Part shown: positions 3,686 through 7,976 of the stretch, piece after piece | Position numbering within the stretch: position 1 is the first letter of the stretch | Layout: each line of letters begins with the position of its first letter | Origin: an archaeon | GTDB taxonomy: Archaea > Thermoplasmatota > Thermoplasmata > Methanomassiliicoccales > Methanomethylophilaceae | Direction: 5' to 3' | NCBI GenBank assembly: GCA_024399225.1 | Contig: JAKSHV010000022.1 | Location: 1 to 10,225, forward strand | Length of the DNA stretch: 10,225 nt | Program-made: the position numbers and the translations under genes | The notes under the pieces: generated by a model | What the model was told of the DNA's origin: nothing | Seen by the model: the letters and a program-made list of their open reading frames with translations, nothing else | Database searches by the model: none

Positions 3686-3883
3686 TCAGAAAAGATACCC
3701 TGCAACAAGAATCAATACGCATCCTGCGACGGCAACGACTGCCAAAACACGTTCCCTCAGCTTCTCCTTTTTCAGCCTTTCCTGGTCCTTGTAGTAGCAT
3801 TCGAGGGAGCAGTATGCCTGATCGAGAGGTACGGCATCTCCGCAGAAACGGCAGTGATCGTGTTCTGTCACATCGGCACACAT
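3686..3883 (-). CDS. DUF2116-like zinc-ribbon, C-terminally membrane-anchored small protein
   Basis: The 65-residue product has a compact zinc ribbon, C11-x2-C14 and C25-x3-C29, in a C-R-F-C-G-D-A-V-P context. A lysine/glutamate-rich amphipathic stretch (about 32-45) follows, then one hydrophobic helix at 46-64 ending at the C-terminus, so the ribbon should face the cytoplasm. The layout fits the archaeal DUF2116 family, whose function is unknown to me. A longer reading from ATG 3895 would add four residues, but ATG 3883 lies 25 bases from the centre of a symmetric TATA element and is preferred as a leaderless start. The gene diverges from the E1-Ubl-E2-MPN cassette and may share that element. 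A single four-ligand zinc site does not make it a RING-type E3. Confidence 0.72.
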   Translation of the reverse strand: MCADVTEHDHCRFCGDAVPLDQAYCSLECYYKDQERLKKEKLRERVLAVVAVAGCVLILVAGYLF

Positions 3884-3903
3884 GTCAAAAACCATATCGT
3901 TCC

Positions 3904-3941: not shown

Positions 3942-4721
3942 ATGACCGATATGAGAACAGAAAATCGTTTCGACCGTATGGAACGTACGGATTGGATCGA
4001 TATGAGGAGAATACAATCTGCCAAGGTGTTCGTGGCCGGAGCGGGAGCTCTCGGCAACGAGGTCCTGAAGAATCTCGTTCTTGCGGGTTTCAGGGACATC
4101 ACCGTCGCCGATCCCGATGTGGTGGAGGTGAGCAACCTTAGTCGCTGCGTGCTTTTCCGCAACAGGGATGTCGGAAGGAACAAGGCAGAGGTTGCGGCAG
4201 GTTCGGTGATGGACATCTATCCCGAGGCTGTCGTGAAGCCTATCAAAGATCGGATACAGTCAGTGGATCTTGAAGGCTATGATATCTACCTCGGCTGTCT
4301 AGACAGCATAAGTGCCAGACTTCATCTGAACTCTCATGCAATGTTCTACCAAAGGCCCTACGTAGATGGATCTACGGATGGGTTCAGAGGAAAGATACAG
4401 GTGGTCCTTCCGGGAGGGCCGTGCATGGAATGTTCGATGAACCGTACGCATCTGAATGAGCTTCACCGCGTATTTTCATGCGATCCGGCAAAATCCGTGA
4501 AACCCTCCGAACCGATGATCCTGTCTTCCGGAATAACCACGACATCAGTGATAGCTGCTGTCTGTGTCCGTGAGGCGATAAAGATCGTGTGCGGGAAATC
4601 GGATTGCTGTCTTGACGGAGTCTGTTATTACGACGGTATGAAAGGAACCTTTGAAACGGTCGGACTGGAAGTCAATCCTTCCTGTCCCAACCATGGAGAC
4701 GGACTATGTCAATTAAATTAA
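3942..4721 (+). CDS. E1-like ubiquitin-like-protein activating enzyme (ThiF/UBA3-like)
   Basis: The 259-residue protein has a ThiF/MoeB/E1 adenylation fold. It should adenylate the C-terminal glycine of the adjacent ubiquitin-like protein and pass it to a cysteine. Visible landmarks are the nucleotide-binding G33-A-G-A-L-G-N, acidic D57, the N-L-S-R motif (R68), K81 in D-V-G-R-N-K and D121 in C-L-D-S-I-S-A-R. A zinc-site half C161-x2-C164 is probably paired with C248 and H251 or C256. C180, in V-F-S-C after the CxxC, aligns by eye with the catalytic cysteine of UBA3. The crossover S-V-I-A-A-V-C-V-R-E matches UBA3-type E1s closely. No UFD or large cysteine domain is present, so it is compact, like UBA5 or MoeB. 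The Ubl gene starts 16 bases inside its 3' end. It is the only gene in the window ending in TAA. A MoeB-like sulfur-transfer role is the main alternative, made less likely by the E2 neighbour. Confidence 0.9.
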   Translation: MTDMRTENRFDRMERTDWIDMRRIQSAKVFVAGAGALGNEVLKNLVLAGFRDITVADPDVVEVSNLSRCVLFRNRDVGRNKAEVAAGSVMDIYPEAVVKPIKDRIQSVDLEGYDIYLGCLDSISARLHLNSHAMFYQRPYVDGSTDGFRGKIQVVLPGGPCMECSMNRTHLNELHRVFSCDPAKSVKPSEPMILSSGITTTSVIAAVCVREAIKIVCGKSDCCLDGVCYYDGMKGTFETVGLEVNPSCPNHGDGLCQLN

Positions 4722-4945
4722 AACTGGTGAACGGAGGAGACAACTCCAGCATCACCACCGAGGTCGAGGAAAACGAATCGGTGGGAGATCTGTTGGTCTT
4801 CGCCGCCCAATATTGGAACAAGGACAATTATGCGTTCGTTATGAAAATAGGAAACAAACTGATTCCTGCAAACAAGGCTGTAGGTGATCTGGGTCTTTCC
4901 AATGGGGATGAGTTAACCATCGTTCCCGATCCTCAGGGTGGATGA
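4706..4945 (+). CDS. Ubiquitin-like modifier ending in Gly-Gly
   Basis: The 79-residue product fits a beta-grasp ubiquitin-like fold, close to the 76 residues of ubiquitin. Strand 1 is I3-K-L-K-L-V and strand 2 is about I16-V20. Helix 1 spans about 25-37. A G-N-K-L-I-P segment (49-54) matches the G-K-Q-L-E-D hairpin of ubiquitin, followed by V-G-D-L-G-L and the last strand D-E-L-T-I-V. The chain ends P-D-P-Q-G78-G79 with the stop directly after, so it needs no maturation protease. Six lysines (K4, K6, K39, K47, K51, K57) could take chain linkages. It starts inside the E1 gene (16-base overlap, GGAG nearby) and its TGA overlaps the first E2 ATG. MoaD/ThiS-like sulfur carriers and SAMPs also end in Gly-Gly, but the adjacent E1 and E2 favour protein conjugation. 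Confidence 0.88.
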   Translation: MSIKLKLVNGGDNSSITTEVEENESVGDLLVFAAQYWNKDNYAFVMKIGNKLIPANKAVGDLGLSNGDELTIVPDPQGG

Positions 4946-5385
4946 ACATGGGCATGGCTAAGCCCATTCTTCTGAGACGTCTGTCGAACGACCTGTCACG
5001 CGTCGGTCCCGGGATTTCCGTATCCGATCCTGGTGCCGATCCATCGTTCCCTATCATGCTGACAGTTCACGTGTCCGGTGTGGAAGGTCACACATCGTCG
5101 GACAATGTTTCGACGGAACACGAGTTTGTATTGGAGATCGGTGATGATTTTCCATATGAACGTCCTCGTGTCAGGTGGAAAACCCCGATTTTCCATCCCA
5201 ATATAATGCCTCCGGAAGAAGGAGGGATTGTTTGTGTAATGGGGATAGATCATTGGGATTTCAACACCGGACTAGACTCTTTCATAGGGGACATAACCGA
5301 TTTGATTAAGAATCCCAATCCCAATGATCCTCTCAGATCCAAGACCTGTGCGGCCGCGGCCGAATGGTTCCAGGATAGGATATGA
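4942..5385 (+). CDS. E2-like ubiquitin-conjugating enzyme
   Basis: The 147-residue product matches the UBC core. It has an N-terminal helix with L-L-R-R-L-S-N-D, central strands, then F-P-Y-E-R-P-R-V-R-W (70-79), H85-P86-N87 and the active-site-type C98 in G-G-I-V-C. W105 corresponds to the conserved tryptophan after the cysteine, and N-P-N-P-N-D-P-L (124-131) mirrors the D-P-N-P-D-D-P-L of eukaryotic E2s. The cysteine is 11 residues after the HPN asparagine, against 8 in UBE2D, implying a three-residue insertion (P-P-E-E region) in the active-site loop. The protein should accept the Ubl as a thioester from the E1 encoded two genes upstream. ATG 4942 overlaps the Ubl stop as ATGA; ATG 4948, six bases after GGTGG, is an alternative start that removes two residues. 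Confidence 0.92.
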   Translation: MNMGMAKPILLRRLSNDLSRVGPGISVSDPGADPSFPIMLTVHVSGVEGHTSSDNVSTEHEFVLEIGDDFPYERPRVRWKTPIFHPNIMPPEEGGIVCVMGIDHWDFNTGLDSFIGDITDLIKNPNPNDPLRSKTCAAAAEWFQDRI

Positions 5386-5389
5386 CCCA

Positions 5390-5797
5390 ATGAGCCAGAC
5401 AGAGGAAATTCCCCGCACCGTTCCCGGAGTAGAGCTGTTTTTCGGAGAGAGCGTCGCCCAGTATCTGGCGGAGATTTCCGAAGAAGCCTACAGTGCGGAA
5501 TCCTCTGCCGAAGGCTTCCTTCTGGGGAAACGTTTCACCGATTCCCAGGGCGAATATGCAGTGGTCAGCGGAGTCACACAGGATGTTGCAAAGGCCGGTC
5601 AGACCGTAGGGTGGTTCCGTTCCTCGGAATCCGGGAACGTCGTGACTCCGGGGGATCTCAGCAAGATCTACTCTCTGTTCGGATATTCACGTGTATACGT
5701 GATTATTATCGACAGTTCTGCTGAATCCATGGCGATGTACGTTGCGGAGAACGGTGTCGCAAGAAAAGTGAAGTCTGTTATGGTCGAGAATCTCTGA
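5390..5797 (+). CDS. JAB/MPN-like protein lacking JAMM metal ligands
   Basis: The 135-residue product has the outline of a JAB/MPN domain. G42-F-L-L-G matches the G-x-x-x-G strand-helix start. V73-G-W-F followed by S-S-E-S-G matches the V-G-W-Y-H-S-H-P-G region of Rpn11. T86-P-G-D89 matches S-x-x-D, and V102-Y-V-I-I-I-D108 and A115-M-Y match the later strands. Both zinc histidines are replaced (R77, S79), as is the following Pro (E80), and the catalytic Glu position before G42 is probably Ser39. It therefore looks like an inactive MPN- domain, comparable in kind to Rpn8 or eIF3f, not a peptidase. It is the last gene of the E1-Ubl-E2 run, starting 4 bases after the E2 stop, so a partner, scaffold or Ubl-binding role is a reasonable guess. 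The reading frame is intact, so it is not an obvious pseudogene. Homology rests on by-eye alignment. Confidence 0.68.
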   Translation: MSQTEEIPRTVPGVELFFGESVAQYLAEISEEAYSAESSAEGFLLGKRFTDSQGEYAVVSGVTQDVAKAGQTVGWFRSSESGNVVTPGDLSKIYSLFGYSRVYVIIIDSSAESMAMYVAENGVARKVKSVMVENL

Positions 5798-6334
5798 TCA
5801 GACCCAGATGGCGTGTTTGTTACGCATATCGGTCTCTGTGGATTCCATTTTGCGCATGAGTTCTGGCACGAGAGTGTCGAAGAAAAGCAGTGTGGCATCC
5901 TCGAAAATTGTTCCAAGGGGGGCATAGATGGATGCCTTCTCGTCCGATTTGGGTTTGACAATGATTACAGTATCGGAGTTCTTGGCAAGGTTGCTGCTTT
6001 TGTGGGCAGTAACCGATACCACATGGACCCCAAGGTGTCTGGAGATCTCTGCGGTCTTGACAACCGACATGGTCTTACCTGTATTGGAGATGAGAATCAT
6101 CAGATCGTCCTTCTCCAGGATGGGCGTGGTCATGTCTCCGACGAAATAAACCTTCAGACCAAGTTGTACAAGGCGGATTGCAAAGGTCTGTCCGACAAGG
6201 CCGGACCTTCCGACCCCGAATACGAAGATACGTTTCTTTGAAACGATGAGGTCGGTCAAAATGGTTTTTTGATCCTCGGAAATACCTGCCAGGGCTTCGG
6301 TGCAGCTCCTGGTCAGGTATTCGAGGGTGTTCAT
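5798..6334 (-). CDS. hxlB: 6-phospho-3-hexuloisomerase (SIS domain)
   Basis: The 178-residue protein consists of one SIS sugar-isomerase domain of the PHI (MJ1247-like) type. It interconverts 3-hexulose 6-phosphate and fructose 6-phosphate; in methanogens this works with hexulose-phosphate synthase to make ribulose 5-phosphate. Recognisable pieces are F-G-V-G-R-S-G-L-V-G (about 39-48), V-G-D-M-T-T-P, the phosphate-loop-like I-S-N-T-G-K-T, and the C-terminal H-A-I-W ending typical of the family. The S-G-S-G-E-T form common in PHI is here S-N-T-G-K-T. No hexulose-phosphate synthase gene is next to it. It starts 4 bases after the TIM-barrel gene behind a GTGATTTC sequence, and its stop abuts the stop of the MPN-like gene with no base between. 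Confidence 0.9.
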   Translation of the reverse strand: MNTLEYLTRSCTEALAGISEDQKTILTDLIVSKKRIFVFGVGRSGLVGQTFAIRLVQLGLKVYFVGDMTTPILEKDDLMILISNTGKTMSVVKTAEISRHLGVHVVSVTAHKSSNLAKNSDTVIIVKPKSDEKASIYAPLGTIFEDATLLFFDTLVPELMRKMESTETDMRNKHAIWV

Positions 6335-6338
6335 GAAA

Positions 6339-7454
6339 TCACTCGCTTTCAGGTTCTTCGGCGGCTGCCGCTTCCTGTTCCTCGAGTTTCTTCTTGTCCT
6401 CTTTGAGCTGTTTGGCGGCCTTCTTGGAAAGCACCCTCTCGGTGAGAGTCCTCATGTAGACCGCATCGTGCTCAAGAAGAGGTGAGGAGGAAATAAGGGT
6501 AATCTCGGGCTTGAGATCGGCAAGTGCCTCTGCAAGCCTCTCGAACCTAATCTCTCCTTTCTTCAGGGGAGTGAGCCATTTCTCGTTTCCTTCGGGGTCG
6601 AACTCGACGTTAGAGAAGGATGCGTAGACCCCCTTGTCACCGCAGAATGATGCGAACTCGCTGATGAGGTCGACGAAATCACTAGAGGTGTTGAGGGAAC
6701 CTTTGGTCCTGGCCTGATAGTGGGGGAAGTTGAGTACGGGGGTGAGACCCTCGATATCGTCACACAGCTGGAAGATCTGTTCGGTGGAACCGAATACGTC
6801 CTGCTGTCCGGTGACCTCGATTCCCAGACGGGGTTTGAGGCCGACGGAGGTCCACCAATCCATGATGTTTCCGAGATTGTTGTAGATGTTTTCCTCGGTC
6901 TGTTCCCTGCTCCTCTTCTTGTCGTCATACAGTCCGACATTGGTTACGACGATGTCTCCGTCGAGGGCATCGAGGATGACTCCTGCCTGCCTGACGGTCT
7001 CGAAGTACTGGTTTGCAAGGTTAGCCTCCTCCTCATTTTCGGAGAACATGTCGGAGCCGAGGTCCATGTAGTAAGGGGTGTGGAGAGACAGCTTGACATC
7101 ATGCCTCTTTGCCATCTGTCCCAGGGGGTAGAGATCATTGAAGCATGCAGCAACTCCTGCAGGCATTCTGACAAGGTTGTCCTCGTCTTCGATTATCTCA
7201 TCTGGGTCATAGATGATATCCACCATTCCGTCGACTTCTCTCTCGATACCGACGACGAATCCGGATTCTGCATCGAGATCCTTGATGGTCTTTCCGACCT
7301 CGAAGTCCTCATCGGGTGCATCGGGGTAGGTCTTGGGCCTGACCATCTGGATTTCAAGTGCTGTAAGTGCAAGATTGTGAACATCCTCAATTCCGTCTTT
7401 CAAGGTGCGACCTTTACAGGACAGCGGGATACCAGCGGGACCGTATCTTATCAT
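6339..7454 (-). CDS. Endonuclease IV-like / xylose-isomerase-like TIM-barrel protein
   Basis: The 371-residue protein begins Y-G-P-A-G-I-P-L-S-C-K-G and contains a TIM barrel related to endonuclease IV (Nfo) and sugar-phosphate isomerases. By eye, Nfo-type metal ligands are partly kept: H125 in S-L-H-T-P-Y, E213 in G-I-E-V-T-G and H245 in N-F-P-H. N172 stands where the second Nfo histidine is expected, N242 replaces the usual Asp, and no D-x-H pair is obvious near V-Y-A-S-F-S-N. It is about 90 residues longer than typical Nfo, with an acidic insertion at about 41-105 and a charged, probably disordered tail from about 347 (K/E then A/E rich). AP-endonuclease activity is therefore doubtful; another phosphosugar or hydrolase role is possible. 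It is the first gene of the unit with hxlB. The ATG follows GTGAT. Confidence 0.72.
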   Translation of the reverse strand: MIRYGPAGIPLSCKGRTLKDGIEDVHNLALTALEIQMVRPKTYPDAPDEDFEVGKTIKDLDAESGFVVGIEREVDGMVDIIYDPDEIIEDEDNLVRMPAGVAACFNDLYPLGQMAKRHDVKLSLHTPYYMDLGSDMFSENEEEANLANQYFETVRQAGVILDALDGDIVVTNVGLYDDKKRSREQTEENIYNNLGNIMDWWTSVGLKPRLGIEVTGQQDVFGSTEQIFQLCDDIEGLTPVLNFPHYQARTKGSLNTSSDFVDLISEFASFCGDKGVYASFSNVEFDPEGNEKWLTPLKKGEIRFERLAEALADLKPEITLISSSPLLEHDAVYMRTLTERVLSKKAAKQLKEDKKKLEEQEAAAAEEPESE

Positions 7455-7527
7455 GGATTATCACTAAGTACGCCCACAATGTGCCTGGGGTATTAATGTT
7501 TTGCACCAATGCACTCGTATTATTACC

Positions 7528-7535
7528 TATAATAA
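7528..7535 (-). promoter_or_regulatory. Possible TATA box for the TIM-barrel/hxlB unit
   Basis: The minus strand reads TTATTATA, which would start transcription near 7506 and leave a leader of about 50 bases. A second AT-rich stretch at about 7490-7500 could instead give a leader of about 14 bases. The choice is open. Confidence 0.3.
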
Positions 7536-7554
7536 GCTCGTACGCGCACATACC

Positions 7555-7562
7555 TTTATTAA
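7555..7562 (+). promoter_or_regulatory. TATA box for the ribosomal protein operon
   Basis: TTTATTAA is preceded by CC and sits 53 bases before ATG 7611. A start about 25 bases downstream gives a leader of roughly 27 bases containing GGGAG (7596-7600). The whole 156-base gap 7455-7610 holds only the divergent promoters of the flanking units; no gene was seen in it. Confidence 0.5.
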
Positions 7563-7610
7563 GAAGTCCACCATAGCGCGAGCTACCGATTTGTCGGGAG
7601 AGTCAGAAAA

Positions 7611-7976
7611 ATGAGCAACAACTGTTCTAAGACTAACCCCCAGCTTGTCGCCATGATCAACGATCTTAAGGCCAAGACTAGGGAGAACAACGCTGCAATC
7701 TGGCGAGACATCGCGCTTAGGCTCGAGGCACCCTCTAGGGTGTGGGCCGAGGCGAACCTCAGCAAGATTGAGAAACACGCCGCAGACGGAGAGACCATCA
7801 TCGTACCCGGTAAGGTCCTCGCAGCAGGCGAGATCAGCAAGAAAGTGAACGTTGCAGCCTACAGCTTCAGTGCAAAGGCCGCAGCAGCAATCGTCGCAGC
7901 AGGCGGAAAGACCATGACCATCTACGAGCTCATGGAAGAGAACCCTACTGGATCCAAAGTTAGGATTATGGGATGA
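7611..7976 (+). CDS. rpl18e: 50S ribosomal protein L18e
   Basis: The 121-residue protein is L18e (eL18), found in archaea and eukaryotes and related in fold to bacterial L15. Recognisable stretches are N-P-Q-L, A-I-W-R-D-I-A, the strand T-I-I-V-P-G-K-V-L-A-A-G and the alanine-rich A-Y-S-F-S-A-K-A-A-A-A-I. It opens the conserved archaeal cluster L18e-L13-S9-RpoN. Its TGA is part of GATGATTCA, which leads to the L13 start 5 bases later. Confidence 0.95.
   Translation: MSNNCSKTNPQLVAMINDLKAKTRENNAAIWRDIALRLEAPSRVWAEANLSKIEKHAADGETIIVPGKVLAAGEISKKVNVAAYSFSAKAAAAIVAAGGKTMTIYELMEENPTGSKVRIMG

Follow-up and report, generated by a model that had tools for sequence, protein, structure and literature searches.

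In the literature examined, archaeal cascades that conjugate ubiquitin-like proteins (Ubl) through E1, E2 and RING proteins have so far been described from Caldiarchaeum and Asgard genomes. There, ubiquitin, E1, E2, a small RING protein and Rpn11 are encoded in a compact cluster and the Ubl is made as a tailed precursor; the Caldiarchaeum Rpn11 clips off a nine-residue ubiquitin tail that blocks activation by E1 (passages of PMC5654768). Conjugation of the small archaeal modifier proteins (SAMP) is reported as needing neither E2 nor E3 (passages of PMC11354881). Here we describe a four-gene cassette on a 10,225-nucleotide stretch of contig JAKSHV010000022.1 (the window), from a probable gut methane-making archaeon of the Methanomassiliicoccales, in which E1, Ubl, E2 and MPN genes follow each other at 3942-5797, all on the plus strand. 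Together with an unlinked RING-like protein encoded near the proteasome gene PsmA, the cassette quite likely represents an E1-E2-RING pathway of Ubl conjugation with a JAMM protease as processor and deconjugase, plausibly feeding the proteasome, whereby the JAMM step has been dropped in the window's genus.

The best reading of gene content and architecture, drawn without a joint tree, is that the pathway would work like the Caldiarchaeum/Asgard system, yet forms a distinct Thermoplasmatota variant. Shared are the E1, E2 and Ubl, a RING-like finger, an RPN11-like JAMM protein, short Ubl tails and the compact clustering, and the structural model of the window's Ubl matches the Caldiarchaeum ubiquitin. 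In contrast, the E1 lacks a C-terminal Ubl-like part, the JAMM gene closes the operon on the same strand, its metal site is dead in the window's genus and intact in 53 of 61 loci, and the RING-like protein is longer (with zinc ribbons and usually a hydrophobic stretch), unlinked and near PsmA. No small RING gene was present among the cassette genes of the window; in L215, a locus outside the order, the gene directly upstream of the Ubl encodes a long protein that ends in a RING-like finger. The SAMP/UbaA system of Haloferax resembles the cassette in its MoeB-sized E1, Gly-Gly Ubl and JAMM partner, but a conserved E2 and a RING-like protein tracking the cassette set the latter apart. With the eukaryotic ubiquitin-proteasome system it shares the best PDB profile matches (UBA1/UBA3, UBE2A, RPN11 and polyubiquitin) and an E3 candidate near a proteasome gene, whereas each cassette encodes a single, short E1 and a single E2, and no sign of chains or of a 19S lid was seen.

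The sequence-only reading of the window had considered the system possibly undescribed. In agreement with this, open-access full texts yielded no description of a Ubl system with an E2 from Methanomassiliicoccales or any Thermoplasmatota and no paper combining "ubiquitin-conjugating enzyme" with "Methanomassiliicoccus", subscription papers and supplements lying outside the search. A term search of the accessible text of a 243-genome study of the order (PMC10804542) gave no "ubiquitin", nor does the word occur in the accessible text of the ISO4-H5 paper (PMC5011839), and the accessible parts of PMC10989744, PMC7613761, PMC7203096 and PMC11188069 contain nothing on an E2-containing Ubl system of these archaea. 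An earlier notice is nevertheless possible, since PMC5654768 refers, in a supplementary figure, to a further gene "Cluster III".

Identity and arrangement of the cassette genes

The E1 was recognized by Pfam ThiF with 166.4 bits (cut-off 28.1) over residues 20-249 of its 259, and the window's protein has no C-terminal ubiquitin-like domain. Its family profile matched UBA1 (2e-43) and UBA3 (1.7e-41) best among PDB sequences, followed by MoeB (1.7e-30). GxGAxGN, D57, D59, K81, D121, C161, C164, C180, C248 and H251 are invariant among 29 chosen sequences (alignment A4). The E2 matched Pfam UQ_con with 46.7 bits (cut-off 27) and, at the profile level, UBE2A best among PDB sequences (1.1e-13); HPN, the GG preceding the cysteine, the cysteine itself and W103 are invariant among 24 chosen sequences (A1).

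The Ubl and MPN identities rest on family profiles and AlphaFold models, because single-sequence PDB searches gave nothing meaningful (best E 1.4 and 0.021, respectively); neither protein had a Pfam match at E 1. The Ubl profile matched polyubiquitin (1.8e-20), and the model (mean predicted local distance difference test score, pLDDT, 87; predicted template modelling score 0.70) resembles SUMO and the Caldiarchaeum ubiquitin with template modelling (TM) scores of about 0.85 by query length, so that the protein is modelled as a beta-grasp with a C-terminal Gly-Gly (GG). P74, D75, P76, G78 and G79 are invariant among 54 chosen sequences, giving PDP-x-GG with x being E or Q (A2, from which the remnants in genomes lacking E2 and the L180 Ubl, which is truncated, are left out). 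The window's E1, Ubl and E2 all retain the residues invariant in A4, A2 and A1. The profile of the fourth family matched RPN11 (1.4e-25), and the model of the window's protein (mean pLDDT 95) matched MPN domains of the BRCC36 complex, Mov34 and Pyrococcus furiosus JAMM1 with E-values of 3e-6 to 2e-5 and moderate TM scores of 0.5-0.65. However, VGWFRSS replaces the VGWYHSH of its relatives, the JAMM histidines are absent and there is no HxH...D metal site. The window's protein is therefore MPN-like and not a predicted protease, and is probably a non-catalytic partner.

The genes are tightly packed (Table 1), with overlaps of 16 bp between E1 and Ubl and 4 bp between Ubl and E2, and a gap of 4 bp before the fourth open reading frame (ORF). 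The latter probably starts with the ATG at 5390, as its relatives indicate, while the start in the ORF list (5324) falls within the E2 gene. These results agree with the sequence-only reading in most of its claims: four consecutive genes overlapping or 4 bases apart, an E1-like enzyme with UBA3-like features, a 79-residue Ubl ending in Gly-Gly, an E2-like protein with HPN and an active-site-type cysteine, and altogether a cassette of E1, Ubl, E2 and MPN genes that is compact and lies in a genome of Methanomassiliicoccales type, as domain searches and neighbourhood counts also indicate. The structure prediction that it had proposed for the proteins supports a ubiquitin-like fold for the Ubl and an MPN fold for the fourth protein, whose JAB/MPN assignment stood as to the fold but not as to the metal site or the listed start.

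Table 1. Cassette genes in the window (positions of the window).
Feature	Position	Strand	Description
E1-like Ubl-activating enzyme	3942..4721	+	259 aa with no domain besides the adenylation domain; RVFSC contains the candidate catalytic residue, Cys180 (codon 4479-4481); Pfam ThiF
Ubiquitin-like modifier	4706..4945	+	79 aa, ends VPDPQGG-stop; Gly-Gly codons 4937-4942
E2-like conjugating enzyme	4942..5385	+	147 aa; HPN; candidate catalytic Cys (codon 5233-5235) in GGIVC; Pfam UQ_con
MPN-fold (JAB family) protein, JAMM histidines gone	5390..5797	+	VGWFRSS at about 5606-5626; orthologue of intact-JAMM proteins in the same slot

Of 101 genomes, comprising that of the window and those of relatives, 79 encode a relative of the E2. 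Loci were retrieved for 60 of the 78 other E2-bearing genomes, giving 61 with the window, some of which reach contig ends. E2 and MPN genes are present in all of them and E1 and Ubl genes in 60, in the same order and on one strand. Since all four genes stand together in that fixed order in 60 of 61 loci, the cassette is more than a set of chance ORFs, and this explanation was set aside. The exception is L036 (genome G007, positions 6376-7906), with an unrelated start of about 40 residues in its E2 and no Ubl or E1 upstream despite some 1 kb of contig; this arrangement may be a chimeric join or a deletion.

The unlinked RING-like protein

The RING-like protein carries a CxxC...CxCG..FHxxC...CPxC finger and zinc ribbons, and in 15 of 19 proteins also an N-terminal hydrophobic stretch (mean Kyte-Doolittle value of at least 1.6 over 19 residues). 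C58, C61, C73, H80, C83, C89 and C92 are invariant in 19 of 19 sequences (alignment A6). A search with PF13639 gave mostly sub-cut-off matches where the cassette is present, whereas 13 genomes lacking it gave none. PF13639 alone misses diverged members: G012, G006 and G072 were negative and were recovered with profile A5. A RING was counted when A5 matched with E at or below 1e-17 from model position 75 or before, the RING itself lying at about 83-118. The next A5 matches (E 1e-12 and weaker) start at position 112 or later among the matches listed; the zinc-ribbon part of A5 hits generic zinc-ribbon proteins, and some match was found in 99 of 101 genomes. With the wider profile A6 (RING at about 61-96), some zinc-ribbon match was found in 24 of 25 RING-negative genomes, all starting at model position 88 or later among the matches listed. 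Those retrieved from G010, G052, G016 and G002 had no RING pattern, the same pattern being present in 17 of the 19 A6 members.

Counted in this way, the RING-like protein (R) tracks the cassette. Among the 101 genomes, 74 were E2+R+, 5 E2+R-, 2 E2-R+ and 20 E2-R- (Fisher 1.6e-14); among the 65 genomes at least 90% complete, the numbers were 50, 0, 1 and 14 (2.5e-13), both tests ignoring shared ancestry. The five E2+R- genomes (G000, G008, G022, G048 and G076) are exactly the five of 23 tested that had no PsmA match at E 1e-50, our measure of PsmA absence; because PsmA is missing there too, the RING stretch is probably unassembled in them. Conversely, PsmA was present in all 18 of the 20 E2-R- genomes tested, and no RING match occurred at these 18 loci; in 13 of them, the stretch contained both the HdrA-like and the Pop5-like gene, and no RING separated the two. 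The RING and its zinc ligands are present in five E2-bearing mates of the window's genus (G003, G005, G006, G007 and G012). The gene order in 20 retrieved RING loci was HdrA-like (opposite strand, 19 loci), RING, Pop5-like (17; labelled by eye, with no Pfam match) and PsmA (17), with about 1 kb separating the RING gene from the PsmA gene downstream of it in these 17. SBDS and Rrp4 follow PsmA in the one locus checked by Pfam. Since the unlinked protein tracks it, the compact cassette, a minimal set in the sequence-only reading, is probably only part of the system.

JAMM loss and the C-terminal tail of the Ubl

The eight loci with a lost JAMM site comprise seven of the window's genus (the window and L033-L038) and L062 of another genus (G053). 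Among the 53 JAMM-intact loci, 33 encode a Ubl with 1-10 residues past the GG and 20 a Ubl ending at GG; in the JAMM-lost loci, seven of seven Ubls end at GG and none is tailed, the eighth locus having no Ubl (Fisher 0.0023, ignoring ancestry). Read most simply, the operon's JAMM protein would mature the Ubl, and its loss can be afforded where the Ubl gene of a lineage ends at GG. Constraint acts on the dead MPN protein, as judged from a dN of 0.063 (nonsynonymous) against a dS of 0.713 (synonymous) between L036 and L038 in a simple NG86 count, with dS near or past saturation in pairs of the genus. A second, unlinked JAMM protein with an intact motif is encoded in G000, G012, G003 and G006, and also in the cassette-less G010 and G011; it could serve tag removal but is not tied to the cassette. 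The JAMM-dead genus thereby offers an example of a deubiquitinase-type protein turning into a pseudoenzyme.

The proposed pathway

In the pathway that we infer, from its chemical steps to its substrates, the E1 would adenylate the C-terminal Gly-Gly of the Ubl, which would then move via the conserved E1 cysteine onto the catalytic cysteine of the E2. The RING-like/zinc-ribbon protein encoded near PsmA would act as E3, placing the Ubl on lysines. By analogy, the last-in-operon JAMM protease would trim tailed Ubl precursors and also remove the tag, and some tagged proteins might go to the proteasome, as the place of the RING gene suggests. In the window's genus, with the Ubl ending at GG and the JAMM site gone, the MPN protein would persist under constraint as a non-catalytic partner, and reversal, if any, could fall to the second, unlinked JAMM protein. 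Of the "protein-modification system" noticed earlier, the genes and domains were confirmed and the modification itself is predicted from them. The pathway may be a simple version of the protein-marking system of our own cells; an order-wide version in gut and sediment methanogens would make the question of whether archaeal E2-dependent tagging already fed the proteasome testable in a grown archaeon.

Several points weigh against this pathway. The conservation of C180 does not prove thioester transfer by the E1, because MoeB/ThiF-type E1s are also known to carry a cysteine near this position. The RING proteins of the order stay under the Pfam RING cut-offs (zf-RING_2, Prok-RING_1), the second cysteine of CxCG, a zinc ligand, is replaced in L255 and L262, and the E-value cut for the RING was chosen post hoc, once the list was known. 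The assembly to which the window belongs (1.21 Mb, 68.6% complete) yielded no RING and no PsmA. A RING is present without an E2 match in G050 and G086; G050 also lacks the cassette's SIS neighbour, and its cassette site may be unassembled. Only two lineages, that of the window's genus and that of G053, underlie the JAMM/tail association. Several lineages have no cassette or a reduced one, so it is dispensable. Finally, the position of the RING gene near PsmA is only suggestive of a proteasome link.

This last point leads to an alternative that accepts the conjugation but takes the tag for a non-degradative signal of the UFM1 or SUMO kind, the location of the RING gene near proteasome genes being incidental. 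We regard this as possible, though clearly less probable than the proposed pathway. PsmA, SBDS and Rrp4 share the stretch, so the neighbours are of mixed function, the hydrophobic stretch of most RING proteins could mean a membrane role, and no proteasome gene is among the conserved neighbours of the cassette; yet the RING gene holds its place upstream of PsmA in 17 of the 20 retrieved loci.

Partial sets and proposed stepwise loss of the cassette

In E2-less genomes, partial sets were found in the same slot (L203-L209, L211). In G004 and G011, an MPN-like ORF is accompanied by an E1-like one that is degenerate (profile E of at most 1.2e-23), and G010 has an MPN-like ORF (5e-10) plus a small one that is Ubl-like by eye only. 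Ubl-like ORFs were found in G016, G028 and G052 (1e-6 to 4e-12) together with weak MPN-like ORFs (5e-5 to 5e-4), in G046 (1e-14) with no MPN profile match, and in G074 (1e-25); by eye, none of these five has PDPxGG. Nothing cassette-like was found in the slot of G065, and the contig of G077 extends just about 0.9 kb past the SIS gene. On a 68-taxon marker tree (50 taxa in an earlier one), which includes ten of the E2-R- genomes, the E2 losses form six maximal loss clades, four of them trusted; the nodes of G074/G088 (0.24) and G065 (0.51) are weakly supported. Such repeated natural loss of cassette and RING together provides ready minus controls.

It may also be asked whether the window's cassette is itself a decaying remnant, perhaps no longer functional here. 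The JAMM site is lost in seven of seven E2-carrying loci of the genus, the genus mates G004, G011 and G010 are reduced as above, and L036 has its aberrant E2 start without upstream Ubl or E1. Nevertheless, this appears unlikely: the window's E1, Ubl and E2 keep their invariant residues, nonsynonymous change is lower than synonymous change in pairs of the genus (with dS near or beyond saturation), and the five E2-bearing genus mates named above carry the RING with its zinc ligands.

The boldest version of the proposed pathway is an old, vertically kept Thermoplasmatota E1-E2-RING-JAMM system with its E3 co-encoded with the proteasome, from which stepwise loss (the JAMM site first, then E1/E2 and the GG) would leave MPN-like and GG-less Ubl-like proteins, possibly with a second, non-covalent job. 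If true, it would be a ubiquitin-proteasome route outside Asgard and Aigarchaeota. We give it slightly less than an even chance, having started from an even one, in view of how weakly the MPN remnants of other genera match.

Neighbourhood, sulfur transfer and defence

The neighbourhood survey across Thermoplasmatota suggested in the sequence-only reading revealed that the set, seen there in one likely Methanomassiliicoccales genome, is indeed present but not limited to it: it is shared within the order and recurs elsewhere in the phylum. In a sample of 389 genomes of the phylum, 78 matched the E2: 37 belong to the order and 41 do not, and five of the latter match weakly (E > 1e-20). Named records with the operon include Thermoplasmata/Thermoplasmatota, Euryarchaeota and Methanomassiliicoccales, with Methanomassiliicoccus and Methanoplasma represented; the assignments to phylum and order depend on these records, and several of the 80 named loci overlap genomes already counted. 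In 25 loci sorted as outside the order, one of which (L194) is labelled Methanomassiliicoccales, a Ubl was near in 22, an MPN protein in 22 and an E1 in 15. Operons that resemble the cassette, with the JAMM site intact, occur outside the order. L213 and L214 are uninformative 10-base stretches.

Conserved neighbours in 86 loci were SIS (74, of which 13 outside the order), TIM barrel (69; 13), L18e (52; 9), L13 (52; 9), S9 (50; 7) and RpoN (46; 6). The SIS protein is HxlB-like, just under its cut-off, and the TIM barrel is xylose-isomerase-like; the two genes (5798-7454 in the window) are convergent to the cassette in most loci, and we know of no functional link between them and the cassette. 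The window thus has housekeeping neighbours and no defence partners, as was noticed earlier and as PADLOC and the neighbour counts confirm.

Two further explanations are very unlikely. As a sulfur carrier, the Ubl would be thiocarboxylated for tRNA thiolation or cofactors like ThiS, MoaD or SAMP, with the E2-like protein as an accessory, and the E1 is short like MoeB with NCBIfam ThiF as its best match, then MoeB and UbaA (all far under cut-off); but the E2 active site is complete, the RING-like protein tracks the cassette, the JAMM of relatives is RPN11-like, no sulfurtransferase gene is among the four, and at least one further ThiF match over the cut-off was found in seven of seven cassette-bearing genomes (16 genomes searched). 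Equally improbable is an antiphage defence module of the Bil type or of the type II cyclic-oligonucleotide-based antiphage signalling system (CBASS; Cap2/Cap3), which shares the E1, E2 and JAB classes and whose PADLOC E1-E2 models match the window's E1 (best 52.8 bits), while the relatives in L066 weakly match JAB (24.8 bits) and BilD (20.5 bits): here E1 and E2 are separate, the window has no nucleotidyltransferase or effector, its Ubl, E2 and MPN protein had no PADLOC match at E 0.01, and the SIS, TIM-barrel and ribosomal-protein genes stay adjacent, including in some loci outside the order.

Other observations

A 69-aa DUF2116 (treble-clef) protein is encoded at 3686-3895 of the window, divergent from the E1. 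It was considered as E3 and dropped, the family being present in 30 of 86 loci and in none of the 25 outside the order.

Some loci deviate in architecture. In G140 and G173 (L219:5279-5788, L220:5258-5806 and L221:5242-5799), the stretch examined around the E2 gave no match to the profiles of E1, Ubl or JAMM. Outside the order, L231 (3917-8344) and L234 (1421-6486) encode a Ubl with a long N-terminal extension, which in L234 contains a zinc ribbon and DUF835, a JAMM protein with a long C-terminal part, and the E1 last in the operon. Ubl-E2 fusions in which, by eye, the cysteine position of the E2 is changed occur, likewise outside the order, in L223 (4831-5508) and L224 (4908-5594), each adjoining a 1454-aa protein with a C-terminal RING-like finger. 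Another Ubl-E2 fusion, with JAMM and E1, is found in G101 (L226:4672-6645) next to genes that are SIR2-like and HerA-like by eye, and this set may be a defence module.

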